Shown: piece by piece, positions 3,951 through 60,447 of the stretch
Layout of the letters: every line of letters starts with the position of its first letter
How positions within the stretch are numbered: the stretch's first letter is position 1
Assembly (NCBI GenBank): GCA_024711325.1
Contig: JANJTC010000002.1
Location: 372,001-436,000 of the forward strand
Direction of reading: 5' to 3'
Source: Bacteriovoracaceae bacterium
GTDB lineage: Bacteria; Bdellovibrionota; Bacteriovoracia; Bacteriovoracales; Bacteriovoracaceae
Length of the DNA: 64,000 nt
Notes under the pieces: model-generated
Database searches by the model: none
What the model saw: only the letters and a program-made list of their open reading frames with translations
What the model was told of the DNA's origin: nothing
Made by a program: the position numbers and the translations under genes

Positions 3951-3961
3951 GGAGGATCTCT

Positions 3962-4354: not shown

Positions 4355-4379
4355 ACTATTTCACATCTCATAAGTTTGT

Positions 4380-4422
4380 AGAGTTAAAACCTGAGAATTT
4401 TAACTCTGCATATTCTTTTTTT
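4380..4422 (+). terminator. Rho-independent terminator of the LPS-core operon
   Basis: Ten-base perfect stem (AGAGTTAAAA / TTTTAACTCT) with an eight-base loop, followed after a short spacer by a run of seven T at 4416-4422. It stands 25 bases after the last stop and before the transporter gene, which therefore needs its own promoter in the remaining 110 bases. Confidence 0.75.
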
Positions 4423-4531
4423 GCTATTCGAAAATTAACTTTTAACATTAAACCTTAAGTGATTCTATAGTTTCAAACGATAGAAAATTTACTTTAAAAA
4501 AAGATTACAAATCGTTTTAAAGGTTCACTTT

Positions 4532-43189: not shown

Positions 43190-44053
43190 TTACTTCGTCG
43201 GATGATCAAATTTCCAGGCGATTAGACGGCTTTTCTTCTGTCCTTGTGACATTTCAATGATTTTGACTTGGGCCGGATGTAACTTTGACAGTGCCTTTTG
43301 AAGAGTGAAAAGACTTTTCTCTTTAGAGACTAAACAAGTAAACCAGTTAACTTGATTGCAATACTCGGAACTTTCCTGAATCAGGCTAAGAATAAAGGCC
43401 CTTTCCCCACCCGGACACCACAATTCAGCTCCTTTGCCACCGAAGTTAAGCACAGTTTTAGGGGAGGATTTTCCCAGGTTTTTCCATTTACGTTTACTGC
43501 CAGAAACTGCCTCTTCCAAGGATTCATGGAAAGGAGGGTTGCAAATGACTAAATCAAAAAATTCATTGGGCAAGATGATATTTCTTAAAGTCGATTTAGC
43601 GTCAGGTTGATGACGTAGTTCTATAAAGGAAGTCAGCTCATTTTTACGGACGATATTATTGGCATTGGCCAGTGATTGTTTATCGATATCAGTCCCTACA
43701 AACTTCCAATGATATTCTTTATAACCTAACAGGGGATAAATACAATTGGCCCCAGTTCCGATATCTAAAACTTTTAAATGCTCTTTTTGTTCAAAGAGAT
43801 CGGCAGCTGAGTGGATATAATCTGCCCGGCCTGGTATAGGAGGACAAAGGTTGTGATCCGGAATATCCCAATAATTAATATCATAGAAAAATTTAAGCAG
43901 GGCCTGATTAAGGGACTTTACTGCCAGAGGATTCGCGAAATCAATTGTTTCATCACCATATTTATTAACTGTAATAAATGGTAACAAACCAGGCGAGGTC
44001 AGGGACAGTTGTTTTAACTGATACCGATCATGATGACGATTTTTAGGATGCAT
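43190..44053 (-). CDS. rlmF: 23S rRNA (adenine-1618-N6)-methyltransferase RlmF
   Basis: 287 aa. It begins 'MHPKNRHHDRYQL', the family opening, has 'VLDIGTGANCIYPLLG' as SAM motif I, and the N6-adenine methylase motif N-P-P-F in 'VICNPPFHES'. It modifies A1618 of 23S rRNA. It stands alone with no clear operon partner. Confidence 0.93.
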   Translation of the reverse strand: MHPKNRHHDRYQLKQLSLTSPGLLPFITVNKYGDETIDFANPLAVKSLNQALLKFFYDINYWDIPDHNLCPPIPGRADYIHSAADLFEQKEHLKVLDIGTGANCIYPLLGYKEYHWKFVGTDIDKQSLANANNIVRKNELTSFIELRHQPDAKSTLRNIILPNEFFDLVICNPPFHESLEEAVSGSKRKWKNLGKSSPKTVLNFGGKGAELWCPGGERAFILSLIQESSEYCNQVNWFTCLVSKEKSLFTLQKALSKLHPAQVKIIEMSQGQKKSRLIAWKFDHPTK

Positions 44054-44092
44054 GTAATTCTAGAGTAGGCGTGACGTTTCCATTTGGCCATA

Positions 44093-44461
44093 ATGAAGAC
44101 TATGAAAAACATTGACCTTTTAAAGCTCGACCAAGATATCTGCCAATTTGTTAGCGAACGGGATTGGGATCAGTTTCATTCAGTGAAAAACCTAAGCATG
44201 GCCTTGGCAGTAGAAAGTGCTGAGCTACTTGAAATCTTTCAGTGGATGTCGGAGGAAAATTCCAACCGGATAAGTGAAAATCCCCAGGTTATGGCAAAAA
44301 TTAATGATGAAGTGGCAGACGTTTTTGTTTACCTGATGAGGATTATCAATAAGACCGGGATTGATCTTGAACAGGTTGTCAGGAATAAAATGCAGAAGAA
44401 TGGTGAAAAGTACCCGGTGGAAAAGTCCAAAGGGAATTCAAAAAAATATAATGAACTTTGA
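44093..44461 (+). CDS. MazG-like nucleotide pyrophosphohydrolase
   Basis: About 122 aa; starts at ATG 44093 or 44102 are both possible and a TTG at 44084 less so. The helical core carries the metal-binding E-x2-E then E-x2-D pattern: 'ALAVESAELLEIFQWM' and 'KINDEVADVFVYLMRI', as in the dCTPase/RS21-C6 group. These enzymes hydrolyse non-canonical dNTPs. Small, cytoplasmic, and followed by a strong terminator. Confidence 0.9.
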   Translation: MKTMKNIDLLKLDQDICQFVSERDWDQFHSVKNLSMALAVESAELLEIFQWMSEENSNRISENPQVMAKINDEVADVFVYLMRIINKTGIDLEQVVRNKMQKNGEKYPVEKSKGNSKKYNEL

Positions 44462-44497
44462 AGACCTGGTTATCAGGAATGATAACCAGGTCTTTTG
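44461..44497. terminator. Bidirectional terminator
   Basis: Perfect fourteen-base stem AAGACCTGGTTATC / GATAACCAGGTCTT with a six-base loop, between convergent genes that end at 44461 and 44498. TCTTTT follows on the plus strand. Confidence 0.75.
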
Positions 44498-44686
44498 CTA
44501 TTGAAGAGTTTTATATAGCTTACTGTTTTTGATATCGTTGTATCTGCTTTCATACTCTTTCCATAAAAGCTTAATCCGGCTCTTCTTTCCAGGGCCAGAG
44601 GCGTATGCCTCATTGAGATCCTTTCTTAGTTCAGGAATAACCTTAGAAACCTTTTCCAGTTCACTCTTAATTTCTGTCACCTTCAT
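44498..44686 (-). CDS. Small helical protein of unknown function
   Basis: 62 aa, strongly basic and helical (TEIKSELEKVSKVIPELRKDLNEA). AAAGGAG stands seven bases before the ATG, one of the better ribosome sites in the window, so I take it as a real, well-translated gene. No family recognised. Confidence 0.68.
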   Translation of the reverse strand: MKVTEIKSELEKVSKVIPELRKDLNEAYASGPGKKSRIKLLWKEYESRYNDIKNSKLYKTLQ

Positions 44687-44730
44687 AAGTACTCCTTTGG
44701 TAGAACGGTTATATTAAAGGTCGTTATATC

Positions 44731-44744
44731 CGTCATTTGTGACG
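44731..44744. promoter_or_regulatory. Palindrome CGTCA-N4-TGACG
   Basis: CGTCATTTGTGACG is a perfect five-base inverted repeat in the 218-base gap between two divergent genes. It resembles a two-fold operator but no regulator can be matched to it. A plausible promoter for the downstream gene lies further right: TTAACC (44849-44854), 18 bases, TAAAAT (44873-44878). Confidence 0.35.
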
Positions 44745-44904
44745 AGTTACGCTTGTGCAGCGGAAGAGACTGTAAAGGTTGGCAGAGTTCAGCTTTCCCG
44801 AGTCATTCAGGCCGATATCTTAAAATAACCTTACAATATTTCAGAGAGTTAACCGATAACCCTTTATTACTTTAAAATAGCTTAATTAACTTTCAGGACC
44901 CCTA

Positions 44905-45864
44905 ATGGATACAGCTGATTCCGGATTATTGGTAAAGATGGAGATCATTCATCTCATAAAGTTTGCAGAGAAGTTTGCAGGCATTGAAGTTCATCTTCCG
45001 GTGAATGGAAAATTTTTGAAACTTAACTATTCACAAGATCATTTTGTAGGAATTCTAAGAAAGCTTCAGCAAAAGGATGTGACAGAAGTCTACATCAAGG
45101 AAGCCGATTGCAAAAAAGTGTTGGAGCAAGTCACCCAATCAATGTCCTCTGCCAGTTTTTATGATCCTAAGACCATTCAGGAGCAAAGAGTTGAAGCGGT
45201 GAGTGCTGCAATGGAAACGGTTAAAGGGATCATCAATCAATTGGGAGTGGAAGCTGAAACGGTGAAACTGCTTAAGACCATTAATAGCAGGGCCATGACC
45301 CTGTTGGGTGAGTCACCATCTATCTTTGCTTTCATAAAAGATTTTAAGAAAAACTGCTCAGAAGAGTTTCTTCTCTCAATATTGACCAACTATATAATGT
45401 CTTTGGTGATAGATAAATTTCCCTGGAAGTCCGATCAAGTCAAAGAGAAGGGGGCGCTGGCCTCAATGATGTGTGACATGACTCTGACTAAAGATGATTT
45501 TAAAGTACTAAGAGATTGGCAGAAAAATGGCGGGGATTTGCCGGAACATCTTTTACGTCATCCTGCCGAGATTGCGGAGAGTTTAAAAAAGAATCGGCTT
45601 TTGATTCCAATAGAAACGATCACCATCATTGAACAGCATCATGAGACTCCTGATGGTAAGGGGTTTCCAATGGGTATTACCTCCAACCGTTTTAACCAAC
45701 TGTCGGCCATTTTTATTATTAGCCAGCAATTCACTGAGAATTTGCATGACGCTTCTTATGATTACGAAAAACGAAATGAAATCATTAAGCGTATCCATAA
45801 CAAATATGGACACGCTAAAATGTTTGAAAAGGCGATAGATGCCTTGATGAAAGTTGTCGCCTAG
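44905..45864 (+). CDS. Degenerate HD-GYP-like domain protein
   Basis: 319 aa. A 110-residue N-terminal region of unknown type precedes an HD-GYP-like domain. The GYP landmark is clear: 'EQHHETPDGKGFP' (H245-H246-E247, then GFP for GYP). The HD pair itself is C190-D191 ('MMCDMTL') and the first helix His is also missing; 'RHPAEI' keeps one His. Cyclic-di-GMP phosphodiesterase activity is therefore doubtful, and a c-di-GMP-binding or partner-binding role is more likely. The stop overlaps the next gene's stop by four bases (CTAG). Confidence 0.8.
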   Translation: MDTADSGLLVKMEIIHLIKFAEKFAGIEVHLPVNGKFLKLNYSQDHFVGILRKLQQKDVTEVYIKEADCKKVLEQVTQSMSSASFYDPKTIQEQRVEAVSAAMETVKGIINQLGVEAETVKLLKTINSRAMTLLGESPSIFAFIKDFKKNCSEEFLLSILTNYIMSLVIDKFPWKSDQVKEKGALASMMCDMTLTKDDFKVLRDWQKNGGDLPEHLLRHPAEIAESLKKNRLLIPIETITIIEQHHETPDGKGFPMGITSNRFNQLSAIFIISQQFTENLHDASYDYEKRNEIIKRIHNKYGHAKMFEKAIDALMKVVA

Positions 45865-46784
45865 CCTTCTCCCCATTCCTGCAGGCGATTGCCACGGGCG
45901 CTTTCCCAGCGGGATCTCCACCAATCAAAAACCCGGTCATACCAAGGCTCTTCTTCAGGGGCTTCTTCTCGTGGAGTAGGTGCTTCCCATGAATCATCAT
46001 GGGGGATAGATTCCGGGAATTCTGGTTCTTCAACTTCACCAATTGGCCCTGGAATATTTCCTTCTTCGTAAACCTCACCGGGAATTTTAGTGACTTTGGA
46101 AAAAGTTCCGCAGGCAATAGGCAGAGTCTGGTGAGTAGGCCTTCTATGGGTACTGGCCACGCTTTCTGGAAATTCTCCCTCAGGAGCTCCCTGGACAATA
46201 ACAACCTTCTCTTCAAGATCCAGACCTTCCTCTGGAAGGAGTTTCATTACATTGTCTGATAGATTTTTATCATCACTTTTTAAATCGCTAAAAAGTCGTT
46301 TAAAGCTGGTGACTCGCTCGTAGAAATATCCTCCTGATTCATCTGCCATGGGATAGATGTTTCGGCCGGCCTTCTGAGTACCTAGATTTGCATCAAGAGG
46401 AATTAAAATCTTACCCAGGGCCTTTTCTGTCTCTGAAATATCCAGATAACCATCCCCATTTAAATCGTCGTTCAAATCTGGACATCGGGTTCCTTCATAA
46501 ATGTTTTGTTGGTGCCATGCTCGAGGCGCTCCGCCAAATAAGCGCACATAGGCAAAAAGTTTATCGTCTTGCCTTTGAATGGTTGCTGACCCGGCCAAGG
46601 TTCCATTGACGTGCGGATTGAGAGTGATGAATTTGGCCATGTACAGGCCTGCAATGTTAGAGCCATCCAGAGGAATAATTTTTCTCTGCTGCTCTTGATT
46701 AACTTTTGGAAGTCCGGCATTAGATCCGGTTTTTCCACAGGACAAGGCCAGGACAAGTAAGAGAAGAACTCCGAAAACTTGCAT
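45861..46784 (-). CDS. Lipoprotein with EF-hand-like loop, acidic C-terminal tail (paralogue of the gene at 58187)
   Basis: 307 aa. Lipobox LALSC (C16). The core (about 35-235) is shared with the gene at 58187 over its full length: 'IPLDGSNIAGLYMAKFIT', 'AWHQQNIYEGTRCP', an EF-hand-like 'DDLNGDGYLDISE' loop, 'GKILIPLDA', 'YERVTSF', 'LPIACG'. The C-terminal 70 residues are Pro/Glu/Trp-rich and unrelated to the paralogue's tail. 'NVNGT..GSAT' in both resembles CHRD-like beta-sandwich segments, but I cannot assign a family. A calcium-binding surface lipoprotein is the likeliest reading. Confidence 0.8.
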   Translation of the reverse strand: MQVFGVLLLLVLALSCGKTGSNAGLPKVNQEQQRKIIPLDGSNIAGLYMAKFITLNPHVNGTLAGSATIQRQDDKLFAYVRLFGGAPRAWHQQNIYEGTRCPDLNDDLNGDGYLDISETEKALGKILIPLDANLGTQKAGRNIYPMADESGGYFYERVTSFKRLFSDLKSDDKNLSDNVMKLLPEEGLDLEEKVVIVQGAPEGEFPESVASTHRRPTHQTLPIACGTFSKVTKIPGEVYEEGNIPGPIGEVEEPEFPESIPHDDSWEAPTPREEAPEEEPWYDRVFDWWRSRWESARGNRLQEWGEG

Positions 46785-46980
46785 AAAACCTCCAGTCGGC
46801 AGTCAAACAAAAGCTATCATGGAGAAGTTGCTCGACCTTTGTCCAGTGATTCAAGTATTGCCACGCATTGGATTGTTTAAGTCTGATAACTTTAGTCAGT
46901 CACAATTTAGCTAGGATCTGTAGGCAATTTCTGAACAATGTAATAGCGTTAAATTTTGGATTTTTCACGAGGAAAACAAT

Positions 46981-48456
46981 ATGTCTATTCGATTGCCCGA
47001 GCATGTCATTGCTTGCTCCAATTTTATTAATGGCCAATGGATCAAGGGAGAGTCGGCCACTCAAGATATTATTTCTCCTTATCACGGAAAAAAAATTGGT
47101 GAGGTTTCCGTTCCTTCTTTAAATCAGATCAAAGATGCCATCCGTATTGCCAATCAGGCCCAAGTGGAATGGGGAAAAACTCCATTAAAAGAACGGGCCC
47201 GGGTGTTGTTTAATTTTAGAAATATTCTTATGCGTGATCTGGATGAAATTTCACACATTAAAGCTTCTGAATCCGGTAAGACCTTTAATGAAGGTAAGGC
47301 CGGTTTAATGAAAGGCATTGAAGTGCTTGAGTACGCTCTCTCTCTTCAAAATATTGATGTGGGTGGACGTCTGGAAGTTTCCCGAGGAGTGAGTTGTGAG
47401 TACCGTCGTGCCCCCTTGGGAGTAGTCGCTAATATCACCCCTTTTAATTTTCCTGCCATGGTTCCTATGTGGACCATTCCTATCGCTTTAGGACTAGGCA
47501 ATGCTTATATCTGGAAGCCATCAGAAAAAACGCCTCTGACTTCCATCTATATTGCCAATGCCTTGAAAGAAGCGGGCCTGCCTGATGGACTTTTCACAGT
47601 TCTTCACGGTGGACCGCAAACAGTTGATGCCATTATCGAAGCACCTGAAGTTAAGGCGGTAGGATTTGTAGGATCGACTAAAATTGCCAAGCTTGTTTAT
47701 ACCAAGGCCACGGCCTTAGGTAAGCGGGCCTTATGTCTCGGTGGCGCTAAAAACCACCTGGTCCTCTTGCCTGATGCTACTCCTGAAATTGCAGGTGTAG
47801 GTATATCGGACTCTTTCACGGGTTGTGCTGGACAACGTTGTATGGCAGCTTCTGTACTACTGGCAGTAGGTGATGTGGATCAACACGTAGAGAAGATTAT
47901 GAAACGGGCCTCATCACTGGAGCTTGGTAAAGACATGGGAGCGATTATCACCCGCTCACAACGGGATTTTTTAGTTGAGGCGATTGATAAAGCTGAAAAA
48001 CAAGGTGCCAAAGTTCTTTTGGATGGTAGAAAGGCCAAAGCTCCTGCTGGAATGGAAAATGGTCATTGGATTGGACCTACTATTTTAGATCAGGTTAAGG
48101 CCGGCTCAGAAGCTCAGACAGTTGAACTCTTCGGCCCGATTCTTTCAGTGATCCGTTGTAAGGATATTTCAGAGGCCATGACCATTCAAAACAGTAGTGA
48201 GTACGGAAATGCCTGCTCTGTGTTTACAAATTCTGGCGCCCTGGCCGAAAGAGTGATTCGTGAGGCCAAAGCCGGCATGGTGGGAGTTAATGTGGGTGTT
48301 CCCGTTCCACGTGAGCCGTTTTCTTTTGGAGGAGTGGCCGCTTCAAAATTTGGTTCAGGTGATATAACCGGTGAGCACAGCTTGAATTTCTGGTCTGATA
48401 TTAAAAAAGTCACCACTAAATGGGAAAAACAAAACGACAACAATTGGATGTCGTAA
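46981..48456 (+). CDS. mmsA: CoA-acylating (methyl)malonate-semialdehyde dehydrogenase-like aldehyde dehydrogenase
   Basis: 491 aa, aldehyde-dehydrogenase fold. Catalytic cysteine C287 in 'GCAGQRCMAA', and 'GGAKNHLVLLPDA', the Glu-lacking variant typical of MmsA, which uses CoA instead of water. MmsA converts malonate or methylmalonate semialdehyde to acetyl- or propionyl-CoA. As first gene of the uracil operon it would fit removal of malonate semialdehyde, the three-carbon product expected from uracil. Ribosome site GAGGAAAAC precedes the ATG; only 8 bases separate its stop from the next start. Confidence 0.88.
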   Translation: MSIRLPEHVIACSNFINGQWIKGESATQDIISPYHGKKIGEVSVPSLNQIKDAIRIANQAQVEWGKTPLKERARVLFNFRNILMRDLDEISHIKASESGKTFNEGKAGLMKGIEVLEYALSLQNIDVGGRLEVSRGVSCEYRRAPLGVVANITPFNFPAMVPMWTIPIALGLGNAYIWKPSEKTPLTSIYIANALKEAGLPDGLFTVLHGGPQTVDAIIEAPEVKAVGFVGSTKIAKLVYTKATALGKRALCLGGAKNHLVLLPDATPEIAGVGISDSFTGCAGQRCMAASVLLAVGDVDQHVEKIMKRASSLELGKDMGAIITRSQRDFLVEAIDKAEKQGAKVLLDGRKAKAPAGMENGHWIGPTILDQVKAGSEAQTVELFGPILSVIRCKDISEAMTIQNSSEYGNACSVFTNSGALAERVIREAKAGMVGVNVGVPVPREPFSFGGVAASKFGSGDITGEHSLNFWSDIKKVTTKWEKQNDNNWMS

Positions 48457-48464
48457 GGAGCAAT

Positions 48465-49724
48465 ATGACTACGAAGCTAGATGAGCGTAAAGAACACGTT
48501 GTTCTCGCTACACATTCAAACTTAAAGTATCCGGAGTCTTTGATTCTTGATTGGGGGAATAAAGACCCAATTAAGCGTGGAGCTGTTGTTGCCTCACAGA
48601 CTAACCCTAAGGCCCGTAACGCTATAGGAACCCATTCAGGCTCTTACACTGTTTATCGGGCCCTCTCAATTGCCAGTGGACAATATCCACCTGCTCATCG
48701 GCCTGATCTGAATAATACTCACTCACCAATTCCACTTGGACCTTTTCCTTCATGGTTTGATGACACTAAAATTGTTTCGCTTGATCCTTGGGGACTGGAT
48801 CCTCAAAACCATTTCAAAGAACTCTATGCAAATGGATATGACATTCGTCCCAGCATAGCCGTTACTCAGGCCCACTTACAAATTCCTGAAATTCACGATG
48901 CTATTCGGGCCGGAAGGCTCAAACCCGATGGGAAAATCATTAAAGAGAACATGGATATCAAAGTCACTAAAGTGGCAATTGAACCTGTTTGGTTTCTTCC
49001 CGGTATGGCCAAACGTTTAAAGGTAGAAGAAGGAGTTCTTCGTCGAATTCTTTTTCAGGAATCGGGAGGCATGTATCCGGAACTGATTACTCGTCCTGAC
49101 TTAAAAGTTTGGTTACCGCCTATTGGATCAACCACGGTTTATATTTTTGGTGATCCTAAAGATCTTTCTAATCCAAATATTGAACTCTCTTGCAGAGTGC
49201 ATGATGAATGTAATGGTTCTGATGTATTCGGCTCAGATATCTGTACTTGCAGACCTTATCTTATGTACGGGATTGAACATGCTGCTGAAACAGCTCAAAG
49301 AGGTGGAGTAGGGATTATCGCCTACTATCGTAAGGAAGGCCGTGCTTTAGGTGAAGTCACAAAATTCCTTGTCTACAATGCCCGTAAACGTCAGGAGGGT
49401 GGAGATTCTGCTGCAACTTATTTTAAGCGCACAGAATGCGTGGCAGGAGTTGAAGATGCCCGCTTCCAGGAATTTATGCCTGATGTTCTTCATTTATTCG
49501 GAATTCAAAAAATTCATAACCTTCATTCCATGTCCAACATGAAGTACAACGCGATTGTGGATTCTGGAATTGAAGTGGTGAATCGGATTTCGATCCCGGA
49601 TGGCCTGATTCCTCTGGATGCGCAAGTTGAAATGGAGGCCAAAAAAGCGGCCGGCTATTTTAATACCGAAGCACCTAAAACAGCTGAGGATCTCAAAAAA
49701 GTAAAAGGTAGAGAAATAACATGA
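48465..49724 (+). CDS. URC1-type GTP-cyclohydrolase-II-like protein (uracil catabolism)
   Basis: 419 aa from the ATG at 48465, chosen for AAGGAG seven bases ahead. The C-terminal half is GTP cyclohydrolase II-like: zinc cysteines C249, C260 and C262 have exactly the E. coli RibA spacing (C54, C65, C67), and 'RKEGRALGE' matches RibA 'RQEGRGIGL'. A 230-residue N-terminal extension and the lack of any rib gene nearby set it apart. Coupling to DUF1688 (ATGA overlap), uracil phosphoribosyltransferase and uridine kinase identifies it as the URC1 partner of the yeast/bacterial URC pathway, believed to open the pyrimidine ring at the nucleoside or nucleotide level. Confidence 0.88.
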   Translation: MTTKLDERKEHVVLATHSNLKYPESLILDWGNKDPIKRGAVVASQTNPKARNAIGTHSGSYTVYRALSIASGQYPPAHRPDLNNTHSPIPLGPFPSWFDDTKIVSLDPWGLDPQNHFKELYANGYDIRPSIAVTQAHLQIPEIHDAIRAGRLKPDGKIIKENMDIKVTKVAIEPVWFLPGMAKRLKVEEGVLRRILFQESGGMYPELITRPDLKVWLPPIGSTTVYIFGDPKDLSNPNIELSCRVHDECNGSDVFGSDICTCRPYLMYGIEHAAETAQRGGVGIIAYYRKEGRALGEVTKFLVYNARKRQEGGDSAATYFKRTECVAGVEDARFQEFMPDVLHLFGIQKIHNLHSMSNMKYNAIVDSGIEVVNRISIPDGLIPLDAQVEMEAKKAAGYFNTEAPKTAEDLKKVKGREIT

Positions 49725-50902
49725 GCGATCTGGATTATATCTTCTCTCCGGTTTGTGTGAGAGATGGAGCAAAAAAAATATTTAGTGAAACTAGAAGTGG
49801 AAATACTCATTTTCACTATCATGAAGAAAAATTAGGGCCTACGGTTGATTTTGTCATGCAAACGATACGGGAAAACTACCCTGATATGAATATTCCCTTT
49901 CATTCACGATGGGGTCATTTTCGTCCTGGTAATGTAGACCGCTCTCTATGGCTTAAAGCTAAAATAAGAGATCTGGACCCATTGGAGCAGGCAAGAGTGA
50001 AATGGGATTTAGTCATTCCTTCGGTTTTACTTGATGCGGGAGCTGGACCTGGTTGGAAATTTTTTGAAAAAGAAACTTCCCGTGAATACACACGCTCAGA
50101 AGGATTGGGAGTGGCAAGCTTCCATCTCTTTATGTCCGGCGCTTTTTCAAATGACGGAAAAAGTTTGCAAAGTACCGCGGAAGGACTTAAAAAAGTTACT
50201 CCTGCTCTGATTGAAGAATTCTTTCAAGTAACTCCTAATAATCCATTAGTTGGAATTGAAGGAAGAACAAGTCTTTTAAAAAATCTTGGCAGCGCTTTGG
50301 AGAATAAAAAGTTTTTTAAAGATGGTCGTCCTGGAAATCTGATTGATTATTTGATAGAGAAGCATGGAACCACTATTCCCGCCACTGCACTTCTGCGAGC
50401 TGTCTTAGATGGTCTGGGGCCTATCTGGCCTGGCCGGGAGTCTCTGGATGGCGTGAATTTAGGCGATGCCTGGAAACATTCTAAGTATGGTCTAATTGCA
50501 TTTCATAAACTCTCTCAATGGATGACTTATTCTCTGGTTGAACCACTTCTCGAAGCAGGCATCCAGGTAACAGGAGTTGAAGGTTTAACCGGACTACCTG
50601 AATACCGAAACGGTGGCCTTCTGCTTGATTCAGGTATGCTCACTTTCAAAAACCAAAAAGATAGTGAAAGCACTTGGGGACCTGAAAGTGATCTAATTAT
50701 TGAATGGCGTGCTCTGACAGTTTTTCTCCTGGATGTTATCGGTGGCGAGGTCCAAAAGCGACTTGGTAAATCACCGATAGATTTCCCACTGGCCAAGGTT
50801 CTCGAAGGGGGAACCTGGTGGGCCGGAAGAAAAATGGCTGCAATGTACCGGGCAGGGGGTATGCCTCCGCTTAATATTAAAAGTGATGGAACCGTTTTTT
50901 AG
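49721..50902 (+). CDS. DUF1688 / URC4 family protein (uracil catabolism)
   Basis: 393 aa, cytoplasmic. The family motifs are strong: 'IPFHSRWGHFRPGNVDR', 'SVLLDAGAGPGWKF' and 'TRSEGLGVASFHLFMSGAFS'. URC4 is required for uracil use as nitrogen source in Lachancea kluyveri, with URC1, and is found beside URC1 in some bacteria; its reaction is unknown. It starts within the stop of the URC1-like gene (ATGA). This pair is the diagnostic core of the pathway. Confidence 0.92.
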   Translation: MSDLDYIFSPVCVRDGAKKIFSETRSGNTHFHYHEEKLGPTVDFVMQTIRENYPDMNIPFHSRWGHFRPGNVDRSLWLKAKIRDLDPLEQARVKWDLVIPSVLLDAGAGPGWKFFEKETSREYTRSEGLGVASFHLFMSGAFSNDGKSLQSTAEGLKKVTPALIEEFFQVTPNNPLVGIEGRTSLLKNLGSALENKKFFKDGRPGNLIDYLIEKHGTTIPATALLRAVLDGLGPIWPGRESLDGVNLGDAWKHSKYGLIAFHKLSQWMTYSLVEPLLEAGIQVTGVEGLTGLPEYRNGGLLLDSGMLTFKNQKDSESTWGPESDLIIEWRALTVFLLDVIGGEVQKRLGKSPIDFPLAKVLEGGTWWAGRKMAAMYRAGGMPPLNIKSDGTVF

Positions 50903-50911
50903 GGGACATAT

Positions 50912-51544
50912 ATGTATAAAAATTTGATTGAACTTAAACACCCGCTGCTTCTTCATAAACTGGGGCACCTTCGTGATAAAAATACGAACTCGGCCGACTT
51001 TAGAAACATCATGGCCGAAATTTCTAAAATGCTTGCCTATGAATCGATGAAGGATTGGACTGAGTTGGATGCCGTAAGAGTAGAAACTCCTATGGCGCCA
51101 ACAAAAGTTGACCGAATTATTAACCCTCCAGTGGCAGTAGCTATTTTACGCGCCGGTAATGGGATGCTCGATGGTGTCCTTTCCATGATCCCGATCGCTT
51201 CGGCCGGGTATATTGGCATTTATCGGGATAAATTTATCCAAAATACCGTGGAATATTATTTCAAGCTGCCTCAAGACGTAAAAGGCCGTCAGATTCTCCT
51301 TTGTGACCCTCTGATTGCGACTGCCGATACTATGATTGCCGCCATTGATCGCCTTAAAAGCTATCATGTTGGACCGATTAAAGTCCTCTCAGTCCTGGTA
51401 TCTGATCATGCCCTCAATCGTCTCGAACATTTTCATCCAGATGTTAAGATTTATGCTCTGAATGTCGAGAAGGAAATGACTGAGAACGGCTATCTTGTTC
51501 CAGGATTAGGAGATGCCGGTGACAGGCTTTACCAGACCAAATAA
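50912..51544 (+). CDS. upp: Uracil phosphoribosyltransferase
   Basis: 210 aa, normal length. The PRPP loop is 'LLCDPLIATADTMIAAI' (classical enzymes have DPMLATGGS/T, so TADT is a small departure), and the uracil-binding C terminus 'PGLGDAGDRLYQT' is typical. It makes UMP from uracil and PRPP. In this operon UMP may be the entry into catabolism rather than salvage. The uridine kinase gene begins 32 bases before its stop. Confidence 0.92.
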   Translation: MYKNLIELKHPLLLHKLGHLRDKNTNSADFRNIMAEISKMLAYESMKDWTELDAVRVETPMAPTKVDRIINPPVAVAILRAGNGMLDGVLSMIPIASAGYIGIYRDKFIQNTVEYYFKLPQDVKGRQILLCDPLIATADTMIAAIDRLKSYHVGPIKVLSVLVSDHALNRLEHFHPDVKIYALNVEKEMTENGYLVPGLGDAGDRLYQTK

Positions 51545-52160
51545 AAGTTTCATTTTAGGTGTTGCCGGGGGCTCAGGCTCCGGCAAAACTTATTTTGCGA
51601 AAGAACTTCAAAATGCATTAGGCGAACATTCTACGATTGTTTACCAGGATAATTTTTATATTGATCAATCGCATCGATTTGACCATGACGGTGGATCAGT
51701 TAATTTTGATCACCCGGAAAGTCTGGATTTGAAACTTCTCGCCAAATGCCTGAGTGAGCTTAAGTCTGGTCAGGCCACCCAAATACCCATTTATGACTTT
51801 AAAACTCATTCTCGAGGTGAGGAACAACTTTATATCGAACCTACGAAGATCGTGATTGTTGACGGCATTTTAATATTTCATCCGGATTATCTTCGGGAAC
51901 AATTTGATGAGATGATTTTTTTTGATACTCCAGAATCACTTCGTTTTGAGAGACGTCTTGAAAGGGACGTCAATGAGCGGGGAAGAACACCTGAGGGTGT
52001 AAAGGCCCAATTCTTAAAACAGGTTAAGCCCATGCATGATGAATTTGTCGAACCATCAAAGTTTCATGCCCATACCATCGTTAAAGATCTCGGAGACTAT
52101 CGTGAACATTTTGACGCTTACAAAGAGAGACTATTGAAACTTGCGTTAAAGTCCCTTTAA
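51513..52160 (+). CDS. udk: Uridine kinase
   Basis: 215 aa. Walker A GGSGSGKT, 'YQDNFYIDQS' (nucleoside and magnesium contacts), 'NFDHPESLD', 'IVDGILIF' Walker B-like strand, and the lid 'ERRLERDVNERGRTPE'. It phosphorylates uridine and cytidine. Its start lies 32 bases inside upp, so the pair is tightly coupled; the ribosome site must lie in upp coding sequence (AGGAGATGCCGGTG region gives AGGAG six bases before the ATG). Last gene of the URC operon. Confidence 0.92.
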   Translation: MPVTGFTRPNKSFILGVAGGSGSGKTYFAKELQNALGEHSTIVYQDNFYIDQSHRFDHDGGSVNFDHPESLDLKLLAKCLSELKSGQATQIPIYDFKTHSRGEEQLYIEPTKIVIVDGILIFHPDYLREQFDEMIFFDTPESLRFERRLERDVNERGRTPEGVKAQFLKQVKPMHDEFVEPSKFHAHTIVKDLGDYREHFDAYKERLLKLALKSL

Positions 52161-52166
52161 GTCATA

Positions 52167-52180
52167 GTGATTTCCATCAC
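52167..52180 (+). promoter_or_regulatory. Crp/Fnr-type box upstream of PEP carboxykinase
   Basis: GTGATTTCCATCAC, a perfect inverted repeat with TGA-N6-TCA core. The candidate -10 TATTAA (52202-52207) ends 34 bases from the box centre, the class II distance. Confidence 0.65.
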
Positions 52181-52261
52181 CTTTTGCCATGCTCCTTCTC
52201 ATATTAAATCTTTGAGCTAATGATTATAACTTTAGTGAGTCATCTATGACTGGGGGATTAA

Positions 52262-53800
52262 ATGTGGGAATGGTGGAATGGAATTCTTTCAGGTGAAATT
52301 CAAATAAGAGTTAATCCTGCTGTTTCATTTTTAATTGAGAAAACAATTCAAAAACATTCAGGCATGCTCACCAAGGATGGAGCGCTTGTTATTAAATCCG
52401 GAAAGTTTACCGGACGAGCTGCTGACGATAAATATGTGGTAAAAAATGAAGCTTCTCTTCACACAATTGATTGGGATGGCAAAATAAGATCTCTGGATGA
52501 TGATAAATTTAATGACTTGAAAGTAGAACTATTAAAAAGGCTTCACCTACTTAAACCTGAAACCTATGTCATTGAGGCCAGTGCGGGTGCCGACCCCGTC
52601 TATTCTCTCGGAGTGAATCTTATTACTACATCTGCTCCCCATGCTTTGTTTTGTCGTCAAATCATGCGCCAAAAAAAAGAGAATAATCCTTTAGGGACCT
52701 ATACCATCTTTCATGATCCTGATTTGGAATTTGACGCGAAGAAGTTGGGTCTTCATTCTTCTACTGTCATTGCGATAAATTTTAAAACAAAAGAGATTCT
52801 GATTGCAGGCACCAGCTATTGTGGTGAAATAAAAAAAGCAATTTTTTCCGTTATGAATACTATCTTGCCTGATTATGGGGTTCTTCCGATGCATTCAGGT
52901 GCATGCGCTGATTCAAAAGGAAAGGTTTCTGTCTTCTTTGGACTATCTGGAACTGGAAAAACGACGCTTTCAACTGATGTCGGAATGAATGTCATCGGTG
53001 ACGATGAGCATGGGATTTCAGAACGTGGTATCTTTAATTTTGAAGGCGGCTGTTATGCCAAAACCTTCAGGTTAAAATCTTCCGAGGAACCACAGATCTT
53101 CAATGCAGTTAATCGTTTTGGAAGTTTGATGGAAAATGTGGTTTTAGGGACCGAGACTCGTGAGCCAGATTTCAATGATCAGGGAATCACTGAAAATGGG
53201 CGTGCCACTTATCCGCTTAATTTTTTAGAGACGATCATTAATGATGGTCGTGGGGAGATTCCTTCGAACTTCTTTTTCCTTTCCGCAGATGCGATGGGAG
53301 TTTTACCTGCCATCGCCCAACTTAGTCATGAACAGGCCATGTATTACTTTCTATTGGGCTATACAGCTAAGGTTGCCGGAACCGAAATGGGAATGAAGGG
53401 AGTCAGTGCTACCTTCTCTCATTGTTTTGGAGCGCCCTTTATGCTCAGAAAACCCGCCGATTATGGAAATCTTTTAAAAGATATTCTTCGTAAACACCAA
53501 ATTAAAGTCTGGTTAGTGAATACCGGATGGTATGGTGGCCATTATGGGATTGGTAAAAGGTATGATCTCTCTTTTACCAGGGCCTGCATCAGAAGTGTTC
53601 AAAGAGGATTGCGAGAAGATACTAGCTTCACTCAGGACCCGGTTTTTTCTTTATCTGTTCCAGATGGGCTGGACAATATCGATGGACGTCTCTTAAAACC
53701 GCACAAGTTATGGGCCAGTGAAGAAGAATATTTTAAGAATGCCAATGAGTTAAAGATTAAGTTTGATGAAAACTTTCAAAAAATAGCAGGGGTCAGTTAA
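52262..53800 (+). CDS. pckA: Phosphoenolpyruvate carboxykinase (ATP), divergent
   Basis: 512 aa, a little shorter than the 530-540 usual. Kinase 1a P loop 'GLSGTGKT', kinase 2 'GDDEHG', active-site Arg in 'FTGRAADDK', 'GTSYCGEIKK' (Tyr and Mn-binding Lys), His in 'PMHSG' and Arg in 'NGRATYPL' match the E. coli enzyme. The usual MHCSAN and GDDEHGW motifs read MHSGAC and GDDEHGI, so it is a diverged member. It interconverts oxaloacetate and PEP with ATP. A Crp/Fnr-type box and promoter precede it, and a stress-protein gene follows with no gap. Confidence 0.9.
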   Translation: MWEWWNGILSGEIQIRVNPAVSFLIEKTIQKHSGMLTKDGALVIKSGKFTGRAADDKYVVKNEASLHTIDWDGKIRSLDDDKFNDLKVELLKRLHLLKPETYVIEASAGADPVYSLGVNLITTSAPHALFCRQIMRQKKENNPLGTYTIFHDPDLEFDAKKLGLHSSTVIAINFKTKEILIAGTSYCGEIKKAIFSVMNTILPDYGVLPMHSGACADSKGKVSVFFGLSGTGKTTLSTDVGMNVIGDDEHGISERGIFNFEGGCYAKTFRLKSSEEPQIFNAVNRFGSLMENVVLGTETREPDFNDQGITENGRATYPLNFLETIINDGRGEIPSNFFFLSADAMGVLPAIAQLSHEQAMYYFLLGYTAKVAGTEMGMKGVSATFSHCFGAPFMLRKPADYGNLLKDILRKHQIKVWLVNTGWYGGHYGIGKRYDLSFTRACIRSVQRGLREDTSFTQDPVFSLSVPDGLDNIDGRLLKPHKLWASEEEYFKNANELKIKFDENFQKIAGVS

Positions 53801-54667
53801 ATGTTATTTCCCATCAAGAAAATTCTGGTATGCACGGATCTTAGTGATCATTCTGACGAAGTACTAAAAAGTGCTGAGGCCATCAGGCAAAGAGTTAATG
53901 GCGAACTGAACGTTTTATATGTTTCAGACATTGGTTTACACCTGGAATGGGCTTCAGATAAGGCCCGGCAGGAAACCTTTTACCAGACTTTTATTGGTTC
54001 AATAGCTGATGATTTGACTGAGAAGATGAAGGTCCAGCTTAAAAGAACAGGGGCAAATGCCAAACTCTTCCTCAGACAAGGTGTTATTGTTGATCAAATC
54101 TGCCAGACCATTATGGAAAGTGATGAAAAATTTGATCTTTTGATCATAGGCCATAGTAGTAAGACGACTTTATTTCATCATCTCATAGGAAACGTGGCCA
54201 GAAAGCTGGTTTCATCCGTCTCAATTCCTACTTTAGTAATAAAAAAACCGATCGAATTTAATAAAATTGCAGGCCTCATTGATGAAAGAGGGTCTTCTAA
54301 TTGGATGATTACTTCGACACTGGATTTTTATAGGACACTTAATTATAAAGAAGTTGAATTTATATCTCTTTGGCATGACCGTCCGGAATTTTTTAATCAA
54401 GACGAGAGCATGAATGATTTTAAAGAAAATCTCATGGATGATATAAAATATTTTACAAGGGATGGAGAGAAGGTCATTGTACGGGTTGAGGCCACCCATG
54501 ATCTTCAAATAGCCCATCAACTGGCCCAATTGATTGAAGAAGATAAGGTAAGCCTCGCTATGATGAAAAGAAACCGTGGCAAGAAATTAAATAAGCTCCT
54601 CTTAGGATCAGAAACATTAAGAATGCTTGAGCTGGAGTCGATAAATATTCTGGTAATGCCGGTTTAA
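53801..54667 (+). CDS. Tandem-domain universal stress protein
   Basis: 288 aa. Domain 1 (about 1-148) starts 'FPIKKILVCTDLSDHSDEV' and ends 'LLIIGHSSKTTLFHHLIGNVARKL', close to the ATP-binding G-x2-G-x9-G pattern though the second Gly is lost. Domain 2 (about 150-288) ends 'LLLGSETLRMLELESINILVMPV'. The ATG follows the pckA stop directly, so the two are coupled. A stress or energy-starvation role with PEP carboxykinase is inferred from this linkage. Confidence 0.87.
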   Translation: MLFPIKKILVCTDLSDHSDEVLKSAEAIRQRVNGELNVLYVSDIGLHLEWASDKARQETFYQTFIGSIADDLTEKMKVQLKRTGANAKLFLRQGVIVDQICQTIMESDEKFDLLIIGHSSKTTLFHHLIGNVARKLVSSVSIPTLVIKKPIEFNKIAGLIDERGSSNWMITSTLDFYRTLNYKEVEFISLWHDRPEFFNQDESMNDFKENLMDDIKYFTRDGEKVIVRVEATHDLQIAHQLAQLIEEDKVSLAMMKRNRGKKLNKLLLGSETLRMLELESINILVMPV

Positions 54668-54673
54668 TTTAGT

Positions 54674-55099
54674 TCATTCGTTTACGGTAAGAGTCATTCC
54701 TTTGAAATTTAAAGGAACAAGTTCTACACTTCCTTCAAAAGGCAGGTTAAGCGTAATCATTTCTGTTGGGGCCCTTACACAACGTGCTGTGGTTGAAGAT
54801 TGATTAAATATATTAATTGCTCCGAAATAAAGTACTCCCCGGCCATCGATAATTTCAAACCGTGAAAAATGTCCTCCGAAACGATCTAAACAAGCGTTAA
54901 GAGTCACTCTGACTTTTGCGATGGAGCCAAAAGCGCGGCAAGTGATGCGATCTGGTTGATCAGGACAGATTTCCTGAACACTTATAAGTTCACTTTTGGC
55001 CTCTGAGAAATGAAGATCCCCTTTCTCAAATGCAGTCACTTCTTGAGCATAGGCCTGTTGTAAGCAAGTCAGGATCATTAGAATTAAAAAAGTTCTCAT
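54674..55099 (-). CDS. Small secreted protein of unknown function
   Basis: 141 aa with a signal peptide ending in QAYA. The mature part is beta-rich with four cysteines ('QEICPDQPDRITCRAFG', 'LNACLDRF', 'ARCVRAP'), so probably two disulfides. No family recognised. It ends 6 bases from the stress-protein stop on the other strand. Confidence 0.72.
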   Translation of the reverse strand: MRTFLILMILTCLQQAYAQEVTAFEKGDLHFSEAKSELISVQEICPDQPDRITCRAFGSIAKVRVTLNACLDRFGGHFSRFEIIDGRGVLYFGAINIFNQSSTTARCVRAPTEMITLNLPFEGSVELVPLNFKGMTLTVNE

Positions 55100-55182
55100 A
55101 TCATCTCCGGGATTAAGTTCGTCCGGAAAAATAATTCAAACGATATTCAATGGCAAAAAAAAGGAGCTAAAGATATTCTTAA

Positions 55183-55983
55183 TTAAATAGTGGGAACACC
55201 AGCGATAGTTTTAAATTCCTGAATAATTGCTCCTTCGTGGAACAATAAAAGAGTTCCTGGTTCATGAACCTTCCATCTTTCATTTTCAGTCAATGGATTA
55301 GTTGCAATCACGGCCACGCGATCGATGGCAGAAGTAACAGCACTGAAATCGACTTTGACATCCTGATCTTTCAGATGGGCCGTTGAGAAAGGGGCCTTTC
55401 TTACAATGCTTGCCAGTTTAGTTGAGCAGTGGGCCAACATGAATTCGCCATTAGATAGTAAGAAATTAAAAACACCATAGCTGGCAAGTTGCATGGTCAG
55501 CTCATGCAGTTTATTACCAAGTGCTTCTAGAGTAGATGGCACTTCTGAAAATGCTTGATCCAATTCTTGAAGAATGAAACAGAAGGCCTGTTCGGAGTCT
55601 GTATGCCCAACCGGTAAAAATCTTCCATTAAGATCAATGGACAAGTTTTTAAGATCTCCATTGTGGGCAAATGACCAGTATTGTCCCCAGAGTTCCCTGA
55701 CAAAAGGATGAGTATTTTCTAGCTTCGTCTCACCTTGTGTGGCCTTCCTGATGTGAGCGATAACATTCTTCGATTTTATGGGATAAGTTCTGACAAAATC
55801 CGCAACTGCTGAATGGGCCGAAGCATTAGGGTCCAGGAATTGGCGGACACCTTTACCTTCAAAAAAAGTGATTCCCCAGCCATCAGTGTGGTGATCAGTG
55901 AGCCCGCCACGGGCCTGAAAGCCAGTGAAGGAGAAACAGATATCGGTCGGTACGTTACAGTTCATTCCAAGTAGCTGACACAT
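55183..55983 (-). CDS. Class II glutamine amidotransferase, YafJ type
   Basis: 266 aa. The N-terminal nucleophile Cys2 is ready after Met removal (MCQLLGMNC). 'DGWGITFF', 'IAHIRKATQG', 'NTHPF' and 'WSFAHNGDL' are the glutaminase-domain landmarks. There is no synthetase domain, as in YafJ/DUG3-like proteins, which have been linked to gamma-glutamyl or glutathione breakdown. Its start lies 28 bases from the divergent gene at 56011. Confidence 0.88.
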   Translation of the reverse strand: MCQLLGMNCNVPTDICFSFTGFQARGGLTDHHTDGWGITFFEGKGVRQFLDPNASAHSAVADFVRTYPIKSKNVIAHIRKATQGETKLENTHPFVRELWGQYWSFAHNGDLKNLSIDLNGRFLPVGHTDSEQAFCFILQELDQAFSEVPSTLEALGNKLHELTMQLASYGVFNFLLSNGEFMLAHCSTKLASIVRKAPFSTAHLKDQDVKVDFSAVTSAIDRVAVIATNPLTENERWKVHEPGTLLLFHEGAIIQEFKTIAGVPTI

Positions 55984-56010
55984 GACAAAAGGATAGCATA
56001 TAATCGTTTC

Positions 56011-59403: not shown

Positions 59404-60249
59404 TTATAGACGTTCATCGTAAGCTTCTAAATAAGCCCCACGTACTTCATCCATATTGAATTTATCTTTGGTGTAGCCCCAGGCCTCATTCATCTGAAGA
59501 TCAGCAGGCTGATAAGTGTACATGTTTGTTCTTTGGATATAACACTCACCGGAATATGGATGATCAGCGTAGTCAGAGTATTTAGTAATCACCTGGCAAG
59601 GAGCATCGTTTCGCATGAAGAGATTCGTCCATCGAGTAAATTCACTGGGACCTCTGGAGTATTTTACATCCATCACTCTTTCAACCACTTTCCCATTCTC
59701 CATAATATGAACATATGGAGCAATATGAAACCACCATTCGAAGTTATAGCGACGGATGTAGTTTCTGGTAAAGTAGATAAGCAGCTTGTTGGACTTTAAG
59801 CTGTGCTCCCGCCACCATTCATAAGACCAAACCATGGCACGATTAAAACATTGAGAGTCTTTTGGATTATATCGGGCCTCACGGAAATATTTTTTTGCAA
59901 GATCCATATTTGCTATCGTAGTAGGAACATATTCAGATCGTACTTTCTGATCCGAATGAGTTCTTAAAATAGCGGGGAGAAAGGGTGTTGTAGGTTCTAG
60001 TCCTGATATGAATCTATTCTCATCCATTGAAACTTTGAACCACTTGCCCTTAGTTTTTTCTAATGCAAACTTTGAGAGCATCACCTTGTTTTCTGGAAGG
60101 ACCTTAGCGACATGACCACTGGTAAGGAGAACCAGAACTTCATCTTTTGAATTTGTACCAAAGTCAATATCATGAATTTGAGTCGTAAGTTCTGTCATGG
60201 CCAAGACTGGTAAGCTCATGAGACAGAATAAAAGTCCGAAAACGCGCAT
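59404..60249 (-). CDS. Secreted protein-glutaminase-like enzyme (Cys-His-Asp)
   Basis: 281 aa from the ATG at 60249 (GGAGGG five bases ahead; an ATG four codons earlier is part of this site). Signal peptide ends LPVLA. A candidate triad is C134 ('SQCFNRAMVWSYEWW'), H175 ('WWFHIAPYVHI') and D194 ('RVMDVKYS'). The spacing, 41 and 19 residues, is nearly that of Chryseobacterium protein-glutaminase (41 and 20), whose pro-region lies before the Cys as the first 130 residues do here. It would deamidate glutamines of proteins, or share the fold of a transglutaminase-like enzyme. Two more cysteines may form a disulfide. Confidence 0.75.
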   Translation of the reverse strand: MRVFGLLFCLMSLPVLAMTELTTQIHDIDFGTNSKDEVLVLLTSGHVAKVLPENKVMLSKFALEKTKGKWFKVSMDENRFISGLEPTTPFLPAILRTHSDQKVRSEYVPTTIANMDLAKKYFREARYNPKDSQCFNRAMVWSYEWWREHSLKSNKLLIYFTRNYIRRYNFEWWFHIAPYVHIMENGKVVERVMDVKYSRGPSEFTRWTNLFMRNDAPCQVITKYSDYADHPYSGECYIQRTNMYTYQPADLQMNEAWGYTKDKFNMDEVRGAYLEAYDERL

Positions 60250-60447
60250 AGAACCCTCCATTGTTTTTCTACGTAACGAACAAACTCCATCATGATGATG
60301 AAATTATCCTTTTTTTGTCTACTAAAGCTCTCTCTTGAGTTTTGAGACGAGGGAGCGCAAATTCCGACTTGTTCGCTGAGGAACTCATGCACCATTGATA
60401 GAAGTGGTAGTAAATATTCATGTCTCATCTCAATAAATGCTGTGGCC

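Follow-up and report, generated by a model that had tools for sequence, protein, structure and literature searches.

We propose, with moderate confidence, that DUF1688/URC4 supplies the missing N-glycosidase for ribosylurea 5'-phosphate, and that it and Qng1 are sister enzymes whose common nucleotide-N-glycosidase fold is used for queuine salvage as well as for degrading pyrimidines, across bacteria and fungi. In Bdellovibrionota, on this proposal, the protein belongs to an operon sufficient by itself to convert uracil nucleotides, whose likely source is prey RNA, to ribose 5-phosphate and acetyl-CoA, both ring nitrogens being discarded as urea. DUF1688 is still a protein of unknown function in Pfam, and the portions of the yeast literature cited here place URC4 in a uracil-degrading route without giving a mechanism (PMC7530994, PMC3869809). 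A link to Qng1, together with a candidate catalytic lysine and acid, makes the URC4 step a defined, testable assay and leads to the prediction that Bdellovibrionota degrade uracil to urea and acetyl-CoA rather than to ammonia. The bacterium's family includes predators, and the operon may serve feeding, as the initial annotation suggested.

Operon structure and conservation

The operon occupies positions 46981–52160 of the window, by which we mean the whole stretch of 64,000 nucleotides analysed, from a Bacteriovoracaceae bacterium (assembly GCA_024711325.1). Its five genes share the plus strand:

46981..48456, + strand: MmsA-like CoA-acylating (methyl)malonate-semialdehyde dehydrogenase, 491 aa (TIGR01722, 447.1 bits)
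48465..49724, + strand: URC1, UTP-cyclohydrolase-type paralogue of GTP cyclohydrolase II (NF005536, 704.8 bits; PF12471 and PF00925)
49721..50902, + strand: URC4 (DUF1688, urg3 family), proposed ribosylurea-5'-phosphate N-glycosidase and distant Qng1 (DUF2419) homologue (PF07958, 459.3 bits)
50912..51544, + strand: upp, uracil phosphoribosyltransferase (PF14681, 200.7 bits; NF001097, 225 bits, cut-off 114)
51513..52160, + strand: udk, uridine kinase (NF004018, 221 bits, cut-off 180; PF00485, 129 bits)

Pfam and NCBIfam back every gene name, DUF1688 being without an NCBIfam match, and the searches with the two core proteins, URC1 and URC4, gave the high profile scores listed. The initial annotation had described these genes as one compact operon; all five were recovered at its coordinates, on the plus strand, and its intergenic gaps of 8, −4, 9 and −32 bases were reproduced with URC1 starting at ATG 48465, the best start (behind AAGGAG) in an open reading frame that spans 48420–49724. 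In relatives, all five genes were found by script on one strand in 35 of the 40 testable loci among L032–L083, or 36 of 40 counting L053, where a URC4 gene split over two frames misled the script into scoring upp as missing though it is present; given this retention, the gene order is not due to chance.

No transporter or regulator gene lies inside the operon and, beyond the five genes, no other gene cluster occurred in more than 14 of 80 loci. A PEP carboxykinase gene sits 101 bases behind udk in the window and was rejected as a member of the operon, because L032 and L040 are the only two of the 80 loci where it comes directly after udk. An Rfam search of positions 44000–56000 returned nothing at the gathering score, and scans of positions 46700–54800 gave no excess over shuffles, with 10 candidate promoters against 16.9 expected and 6 candidate terminators against 6.9.

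Distribution in Bdellovibrionota

DUF1688 was present in 110 of 290 Bdellovibrionota genomes, so that 'scattered bacteria', as the initial annotation put it, understates the case for this phylum, in which the URC pathway is common. URC1 scored over its cut-off in 107 of those 110 genomes, leaving three with DUF1688 but no URC1 above that cut-off; the reverse was seen in none of the 290. Near and far loci differ at the edges of the operon: the dehydrogenase gene precedes URC1 in 42 of 43 near loci that could be tested versus 2 of 24 far loci, and udk is found in 45 of 48 versus 2 of 24, making this pair of genes a lineage variant. Behind URC4, upp is retained in 48 of 49 near loci (L053 corrected) and in all 26 testable far loci. 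The locus sets L001–L031 and L032–L111 overlap (L005 and L067, for example, look like one contig). Two far loci, L084 and L088, have DUF1688 without URC1 upstream. L082 and L083 were scored as lacking udk, yet carry a udk-like gene (37–39% identity) upstream on the other strand.

URC4 as a relative of Qng1

URC4 matches PF07958 over profile positions 2–420 of 420, against a cut-off of 25 bits, and its structure was modelled with a pLDDT of 93.9 and a pTM of 0.92. When the model was compared with the PDB using Foldseek, all 11 matches at E ≤ 0.001 were Qng1 chains, the best with E 7.3e-9, probability 1.00 and TM 0.62/0.71, and the first match outside Qng1 had E 0.099. These structural matches have TM 0.60–0.63 by query length at 13–15% identity. 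Profile–profile comparison with HHalign, in which six sequences made up the Qng1 side (the L130 reading frame, being the wrong one, was left out), gave a probability of 90.8% and a score of 54.2, against 24.0 for the best of 200 column shuffles, 15.8 for a reversed profile, and 17.5 and 15.6 for two unrelated families. At E ≤ 1, the Pfam model Q_salvage (PF10343) matched 29 of 44 DUF1688 proteins, the best with E 1.2e-5, and the next foreign family matched four (best E 0.01); one relative, L121, passes the Q_salvage cut-off at 25.3 bits versus 25.

The URC4 of the window and 14 other members of the 44 gave no Q_salvage match at E ≤ 1, a sequence search of the PDB with the profile of the 44-member alignment did not find Qng1, and a plasmid search with a Qng1 protein gave no match. 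As the window's own URC4 lacks a direct sequence match, the homology rests on its relatives, the profile–profile comparison and the fold.

The Qng1 residues K199 and D231, whose positions were read from the mutant chains 7u5a and 7ulc, correspond to K263 and E294 (Asp to Glu) of URC4 in a profile alignment made through the Qng1 relative L124, rather than by superposition; an E-x-R motif also aligns between the two proteins. Residues K263, Q266, E294, Y295, R296, E328 and R330 are invariant in all 44 sequences of the DUF1688 alignment, which comprises the window protein and 43 of 80 loci chosen by hand for spread. Qng1, the queuosine-5'-monophosphate N-glycosidase, acts on queuosine phosphate, whereas ribosylurea 5'-phosphate is the expected substrate of URC4. 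Because fold match, profile comparison and the aligned lysine and acid all point to Qng1, URC4 is probably a ribosylurea-5'-phosphate N-glycosidase, as judged from a structure model and alignments. The link is new here: a literature search, judged on titles and the starts of abstracts, found no paper connecting DUF1688 or URC4 with Qng1.

Proposed pathway

We consider it likely that the operon encodes a bacterial version of the URC pathway that recovers carbon from uracil nucleotides; the probable products of uracil breakdown are acetyl-CoA, a sugar phosphate and urea. UMP would be formed by Upp from uracil and PRPP and by Udk from uridine and ATP, then raised to UTP by general kinases. URC1, a zinc enzyme, would open the pyrimidine ring of UTP, C4–C6 leaving as malonate semialdehyde (3-oxopropanoate); by analogy with RibA it would also release pyrophosphate, and ribosylurea 5'-phosphate would remain. 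URC4 would hydrolyse the N-glycosidic bond of this compound to urea and ribose 5-phosphate, using K263 and E294 as counterparts of the Qng1 pair. The MmsA-like dehydrogenase would convert malonate semialdehyde, CoA and NAD+ to acetyl-CoA and CO2, and the urea, left unsplit, would probably leave the cell. All substrates and products, the level of UTP rather than UMP and the purpose in vivo are what we infer from these assignments, acetyl-CoA as end product being taken from the dehydrogenase family.

In yeast, according to the portions of the papers used here, the URC route leads from uracil to urea and 3-hydroxypropionate, with URC4 acting on ribosylurea (PMC7530994, PMC3869809). Lachancea kluyveri (URC1, URC4, URC6) and Schizosaccharomyces pombe (urg1/urg3) share with our operon the URC1- and URC4-family proteins and a uracil phosphoribosyltransferase, and both systems are expected to give urea and a C3 unit (same sources). 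Unlike the yeast genes, those described here are joined in a single bacterial operon that also encodes a uridine kinase and a semialdehyde dehydrogenase of the CoA-acylating type, and the expected end is acetyl-CoA instead of 3-hydroxypropionate.

The dehydrogenase

The initial annotation had inferred that the operon brings its own MmsA-like semialdehyde dehydrogenase, and the family assignment stands: the protein is the best of seven TIGR01722 matches in the genome and its next family scores 272 bits, although its TIGR01722 score falls 1.4 bits short of the cut-off of 448.5. Hydrolytic aldehyde dehydrogenases need a general-base glutamate. In all 44 sequences aligned, window and duplicates included, the catalytic Cys287 is kept and position 252 is not Glu (Ala in 23, Cys in 18, Thr in two, Ser in one), as in CoA-acylating members of the MmsA/IolA group. 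What sets the protein apart, besides the narrow shortfall, is Lys111, present in 44 of 44, where the five MMSDH structures compared, out of ten found, have an arginine for the substrate carboxylate (Arg107 of IolA). Since it scores under the MMSDH cut-off and has Lys for Arg, its substrate may differ.

These same two features, and the lack of such a gene ahead of URC1 in 22 of 24 far loci, would suit a dehydrogenase that is a mere neighbour oxidising some other aldehyde, such as methylmalonate semialdehyde from valine or thymine. We regard this as unlikely, as the gene keeps its place upstream of URC1 in nearly all near loci and also in the Holophagaceae and Myxococcus loci L093 and L105, and malonate semialdehyde is the very aldehyde expected from the ring carbons.

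Fate of urea

A yeast-type URC pathway splits urea to ammonia and CO2; neither urease alpha nor allophanate hydrolase was matched in the window's genome, which is 93% complete. Across the phylum, urease alpha was credible in one of 290 genomes, one without DUF1688, and allophanate hydrolase passed its cut-off in none of the 290, while control genomes were over the cut-off in both searches. A partial urease alpha match in G071, at 23.6 bits, is doubtful. As both enzymes are nearly absent from the phylum, urea is probably excreted; ammonia was rejected as the expected product, and ammonia release, the readout that had been suggested with the operon, is probably the wrong one. The yeast route supplies nitrogen by way of urea, according to the portion of PMC7530994 used here, and the bacterial operon could likewise scavenge nitrogen if some unrecognised enzyme split urea to ammonia; against the counts just given and their positive controls, we find this quite unlikely.

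Upp and the salvage of uracil

Both upp and udk encode ordinary salvage enzymes, and the operon might be a pyrimidine salvage unit whose main service is UMP, the catabolic genes having been added by chance. Within the bacterium's own family, DUF1688 is present in 52 of 54 genomes with a strong upp (best match at least 190 bits, our own threshold) and in none of the 39 without one, in a comparison whose Fisher tests ignore shared ancestry. This near-exclusive co-occurrence points to a dedicated catabolic role for upp, not general salvage, and a salvage-only reading of the two genes was rejected on it. Far relatives, moreover, keep upp behind URC4 throughout but seldom have udk. Salvage as the main purpose is thus very unlikely. 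The two exceptions with strong upp and no DUF1688 are G249 and G259.

URC1 and riboflavin GTP cyclohydrolase II

URC1 exceeds the NF005536 cut-off of 403 bits by a wide margin and reaches 45.9 bits with the TIGR00505 ribA model (cut-off 205.85), while a separate ribA gene elsewhere in the genome (G000:C1:1203585) scores 256.2 bits. The initial annotation spoke of a RibA-like protein with three zinc cysteines and a long N-terminal extension, distinct from riboflavin enzymes, and each of these points held. In a phmmer alignment to E. coli RibA (2bz0), the three cysteines that bind zinc in GTP cyclohydrolase II fall on C264, C275 and C277 of URC1, numbered from 48420, and Tyr319, Asp346 and Arg348 align too; their E. 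coli counterparts are the Zn-binding Cys triad, Tyr105, Asp126 and Arg128. Among 102 URC1 sequences, duplicates included, at least 97% keep each of the six residues (for both sets of residue counts, a minimum length of 380 or 450 aa and a coverage of at least 85% were required). The N-terminal extension is a PF12471 GTP_CH_N domain (262 bits), and is a family trait since the solved relatives 7eev and 7ej3, which URC1 matches at 545 bits over 409 residues, align along the whole of it. We take these two structures to be the UTP cyclohydrolase reportedly described by Zhang et al. (ACS Catal 2021), and URC1 is predicted by this likeness to act on UTP. Both are also named GTP cyclohydrolase II in the PDB.

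A role for URC1 as an additional GTP cyclohydrolase II for riboflavin, in a cluster for flavin or another GTP-derived product, is hardly credible: NF005536 (PRK07198) bears that name and the RibA catalytic residues are kept, but URC1 falls far under the ribA cut-off in a genome with its own ribA, has the additional PF12471 domain, is linked with DUF1688 and upp, and has solved relatives that we take to be UTP cyclohydrolase.

Plasmids of Azospirillum, Gordonia and Pseudoroseomonas show the same order of 'GTP cyclohydrolase II', 'URC4/urg3 family protein' and upp, with no adjoining aldehyde dehydrogenase or udk in the features listed, the gene table being incomplete by design. The NCBIfam name GTP cyclohydrolase II for URC1-type proteins, also carried by these public records, is a probable naming error. 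On the Azospirillum plasmid, an ABC transporter and an amidohydrolase stand behind upp.

Operon content and gene identities

The initial annotation had described a URC-type uracil-catabolism operon of five genes, and Pfam and NCBIfam agree with it both on the operon and on all five names:

46981–52160, + strand: five-gene URC operon (ORFs, Pfam, NCBIfam)

Its domains are, in order, an aldehyde dehydrogenase of the methylmalonate-semialdehyde dehydrogenase (MMSDH) type, GTP_CH_N plus GTP_cyclohydro2 (URC1), DUF1688 (URC4), UPRTase (upp) and uridine kinase (udk). The URC1 ORF starts at 48420, and taking the ATG at 48465, which is preceded by AAGGAG, reproduces the 8-base gap from the dehydrogenase reported earlier; further along, URC1 and DUF1688 overlap by ATGA, upp follows 9 bases later and udk overlaps upp by 32 bases. 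The operon is of a known kind, widespread in its phylum, with a distinct finishing enzyme, and a feeding role in predation is plausible.

URC4 as a relative of Qng1

A stronger result than the operon itself is that URC4, as judged from profile comparison, DUF1688 relatives and a predicted fold, is a relative of Qng1 (DUF2419; Pfam Q_salvage), the queuosine-5'-phosphate N-glycosidase. When the AlphaFold2 model of URC4 (44 DUF1688 sequences; pLDDT 93.9, pTM 0.92) was compared with the PDB using Foldseek, every one of the 11 matches at E ≤ 0.001 was Qng1/DUF2419 (E 7.3e-9 to 2.5e-7; 13–15% identity; TM 0.60–0.63 by query, 0.70–0.74 by target), and the first match outside that family had an E-value of 0.099 and a TM of 0.16. 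Among 44 DUF1688 proteins, 29 matched Q_salvage at E ≤ 1 (best 1.2e-5), while the next foreign Pfam family matched four (best 0.01); the window URC4 by itself gave no Q_salvage match at E ≤ 1. A Q_salvage search of 290 genomes from the phylum returned only three matches (G273, G118, G244), all within DUF1688 genes, as is the match in Reyranella massiliensis; one DUF1688 protein from these finds exceeds the Q_salvage cut-off (25.3 vs 25). The profile of the 44-protein DUF1688 alignment did not find Qng1 in the PDB by sequence. Compared with six Qng1 relatives in HHalign, the same alignment scored 54.2 (probability 90.8%), against a maximum of 24.0 in 200 column shuffles and control scores of 15.8 (reversed alignment), 17.5 (dehydrogenase alignment) and 15.6 (URC1 alignment). 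The URC4–Qng1 link was not found in the literature listings searched.

HHalign pairs URC4 FHKLSQ (K263, Q266) with Qng1 FYKRAQ, LTGLPEYR (E294, Y295, R296) with LTAFADYK, and IIEWRALT (E328, R330) with an E-x-R-A stretch of Qng1; these seven putative active-site residues are invariant in 44/44 sequences, and the Qng1 mutant structures 7u5a (K199C) and 7ulc (D231N) mark residues within FYKRAQ and LTAFADYK. According to excerpts of two papers, the primary substrate of Qng1 is queuosine 5'-monophosphate (PMC11592518) and the enzyme removes the base from queuosine and its monophosphates (PMC11130926). Acting in a Qng1-like manner on ribosylurea 5'-phosphate, URC4 would release urea and ribose 5-phosphate, products that would agree with the yeast model as excerpted, in which URC4 converts ribosylurea to urea (PMC7530994).

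URC1 and its substrate

The RibA-like protein had been thought distinct from the riboflavin enzyme, and profile scores bear this out: 704.8 bits to NF005536 (cut-off 403) and 45.9 bits to the ribA model (cut-off 205.85). That low ribA score, together with a separate ribA match elsewhere in the genome (G000:C1:1203585, a 413-codon frame, 256.2 bits; the window occupies G000:C7:372001–436000), rules out URC1 as riboflavin RibA. Alignment to E. coli RibA (2bz0) located the three zinc cysteines noted initially (C264, C275, C277; numbered from 48420) and matched Y319, D346 and R348; across 102 sequences (duplicates among them), each of the six is conserved in 97% or more. We take the latter three to be Tyr105, Asp126 and Arg128 of the E. 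coli enzyme. Arg128 of RibA acts on the triphosphate, so its retention is compatible with a nucleoside triphosphate substrate.

The best PDB relatives, 7eev and 7ej3 (545 bits), are named GTP cyclohydrolase II and are presumably the structures from the UTP cyclohydrolase study of Zhang et al. An excerpt of PMC12507026 cites that study for the URC pathway (Zhang et al., ACS Catal 2021). NF005536 and plasmid loci L134, L135 and L137 also label URC1-type proteins 'GTP cyclohydrolase II', despite adjacent URC4 and upp; the label is probably a family-wide misnomer.

Distribution and gene order

DUF1688 is present in 110/290 Bdellovibrionota genomes (87/221 of good-quality ones), including all 107 with URC1 above cut-off; the other three are G135 and G137, both with URC1 fragmented, and G171; G143 and G253 hold URC1 fragments without DUF1688. 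By DUF1688 protein, the nearest relative found is a Bacteriovoracaceae MAG of this phylum (L032, 97% identity).

Checking gene order in relatives, as initially proposed, covered 80 loci: a near set (L032–L083) and a far set (L084–L111; 20/28 alphaproteobacterial, judged from record titles). The near set has the dehydrogenase 5' of URC1 in 42/43 testable loci, upp in 48/49 (47 by script, corrected for L053 with its split URC4), same-strand udk in 45/48 and the complete operon in 36/40 (35 by script). The far set has URC1 in 25/27 testable loci and upp in 26/26, with the dehydrogenase in 2/24, udk in 2/24 and all five genes in 1/20. From these counts, URC1-URC4-upp is the shared core, to which the near set typically adds the dehydrogenase and udk. 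The full set also occurs in a Holophagaceae MAG (L093), and Myxococcus dinghuensis (L105) has the dehydrogenase without udk. Thirteen plasmid records held a match; three of the four examined show the core order, annotated as 'GTP cyclohydrolase II', 'URC4/urg3 family protein' and upp, and the fourth has no gene table.

Some individual loci stand out. The L053 operon is complete except that its DUF1688 gene (3596–4778) is broken across two frames, through decay or assembly error, and L077 (Fluviispira multicolorata) has dehydrogenase-URC1-URC4 with neither upp nor udk in the vicinity. The organism name on L073 (Nitrosovibrio sp. Nv4) looks wrong, the number and match coordinates of this short contig agreeing with G066:C135, from a Bdellovibrionota genome. 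On an Azospirillum sp. TSH58 plasmid (L134), a BMP-family ABC transporter, which we take to import nucleosides, and an amidohydrolase lie 3' of URC1-URC4-upp, possibly as an uptake module serving the pathway.

Co-occurrence across genomes shows that upp is part of the URC pathway. Of 115 Bacteriovoracaceae genomes surveyed for upp, 93 were shared with the DUF1688 survey; strong upp (at least 190 bits, a threshold we set) occurs in 54 of these, 52 of which carry DUF1688, as against 0/39 of the remainder (Fisher p = 3e-24, computed ignoring ancestry). Within the window's own genus the figures are 9/9 and 0/5. Among the 93 family genomes in both surveys, those with strong upp but lacking DUF1688 are G249 and G259.

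Dehydrogenase and fate of urea

The operon dehydrogenase heads seven MMSDH-model matches in its genome (446.9 bits; runner-up 248), and in the protein scan fell 1.4 bits below the curated MMSDH cut-off. Cys287 is kept in 44/44 sequences. Position 252, presumably Glu in hydrolytic ALDHs, is Ala in 23, Cys in 18, Thr in two and Ser in one; the lack of Glu throughout is consistent with a CoA-acylating dehydrogenase. Position 111 is Lys in 44/44 and Arg in all five MMSDH structures listed. If this is, as we assume, the carboxylate-binding Arg of IolA, Lys111 sets apart a subfamily whose substrate differs and is plausibly malonate semialdehyde; the product would be acetyl-CoA.

Urease alpha exceeded the profile cut-off in 2/290 genomes: a credible match in G191 (189 bits), which lacks DUF1688, and a partial one in G071 (23.6 bits), which has it. 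Allophanate hydrolase did so in 0/290, and the weaker hits seen in 206 genomes probably reflect GatA or similar amidases; neither enzyme was found in the window's genome by profile search, and the control genomes gave 3/14 and 1/14, respectively. Given this near-absence, from a search covering urease alpha and allophanate hydrolase, the lineage probably leaves urea nitrogen unused, unlike yeast, where the URC route serves nitrogen use, so a working pathway could escape a growth or ammonia test.

Neighbouring genes

Upstream, a 319-aa protein (44905–45864, +) carries a HHETPDGKGFPMG stretch, which to us resembles a degenerate HD-GYP motif, and has an HD_5 match below cut-off (18 bits vs 27.2). 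PEP carboxykinase and, immediately after it, a universal stress protein (together 52262–54667, +) lie 3' of the operon, a pair that holds the same position in L032 and L040. Elsewhere in the window are a 285-aa protein with a Gln_deamidase_2 domain (59404–60261, −; 39.6 bits, cut-off 25) and a single 1208-aa ORF (4532–8158, +) that contains ABC-transporter membrane stretches and ABC ATPase stretches, two of each.
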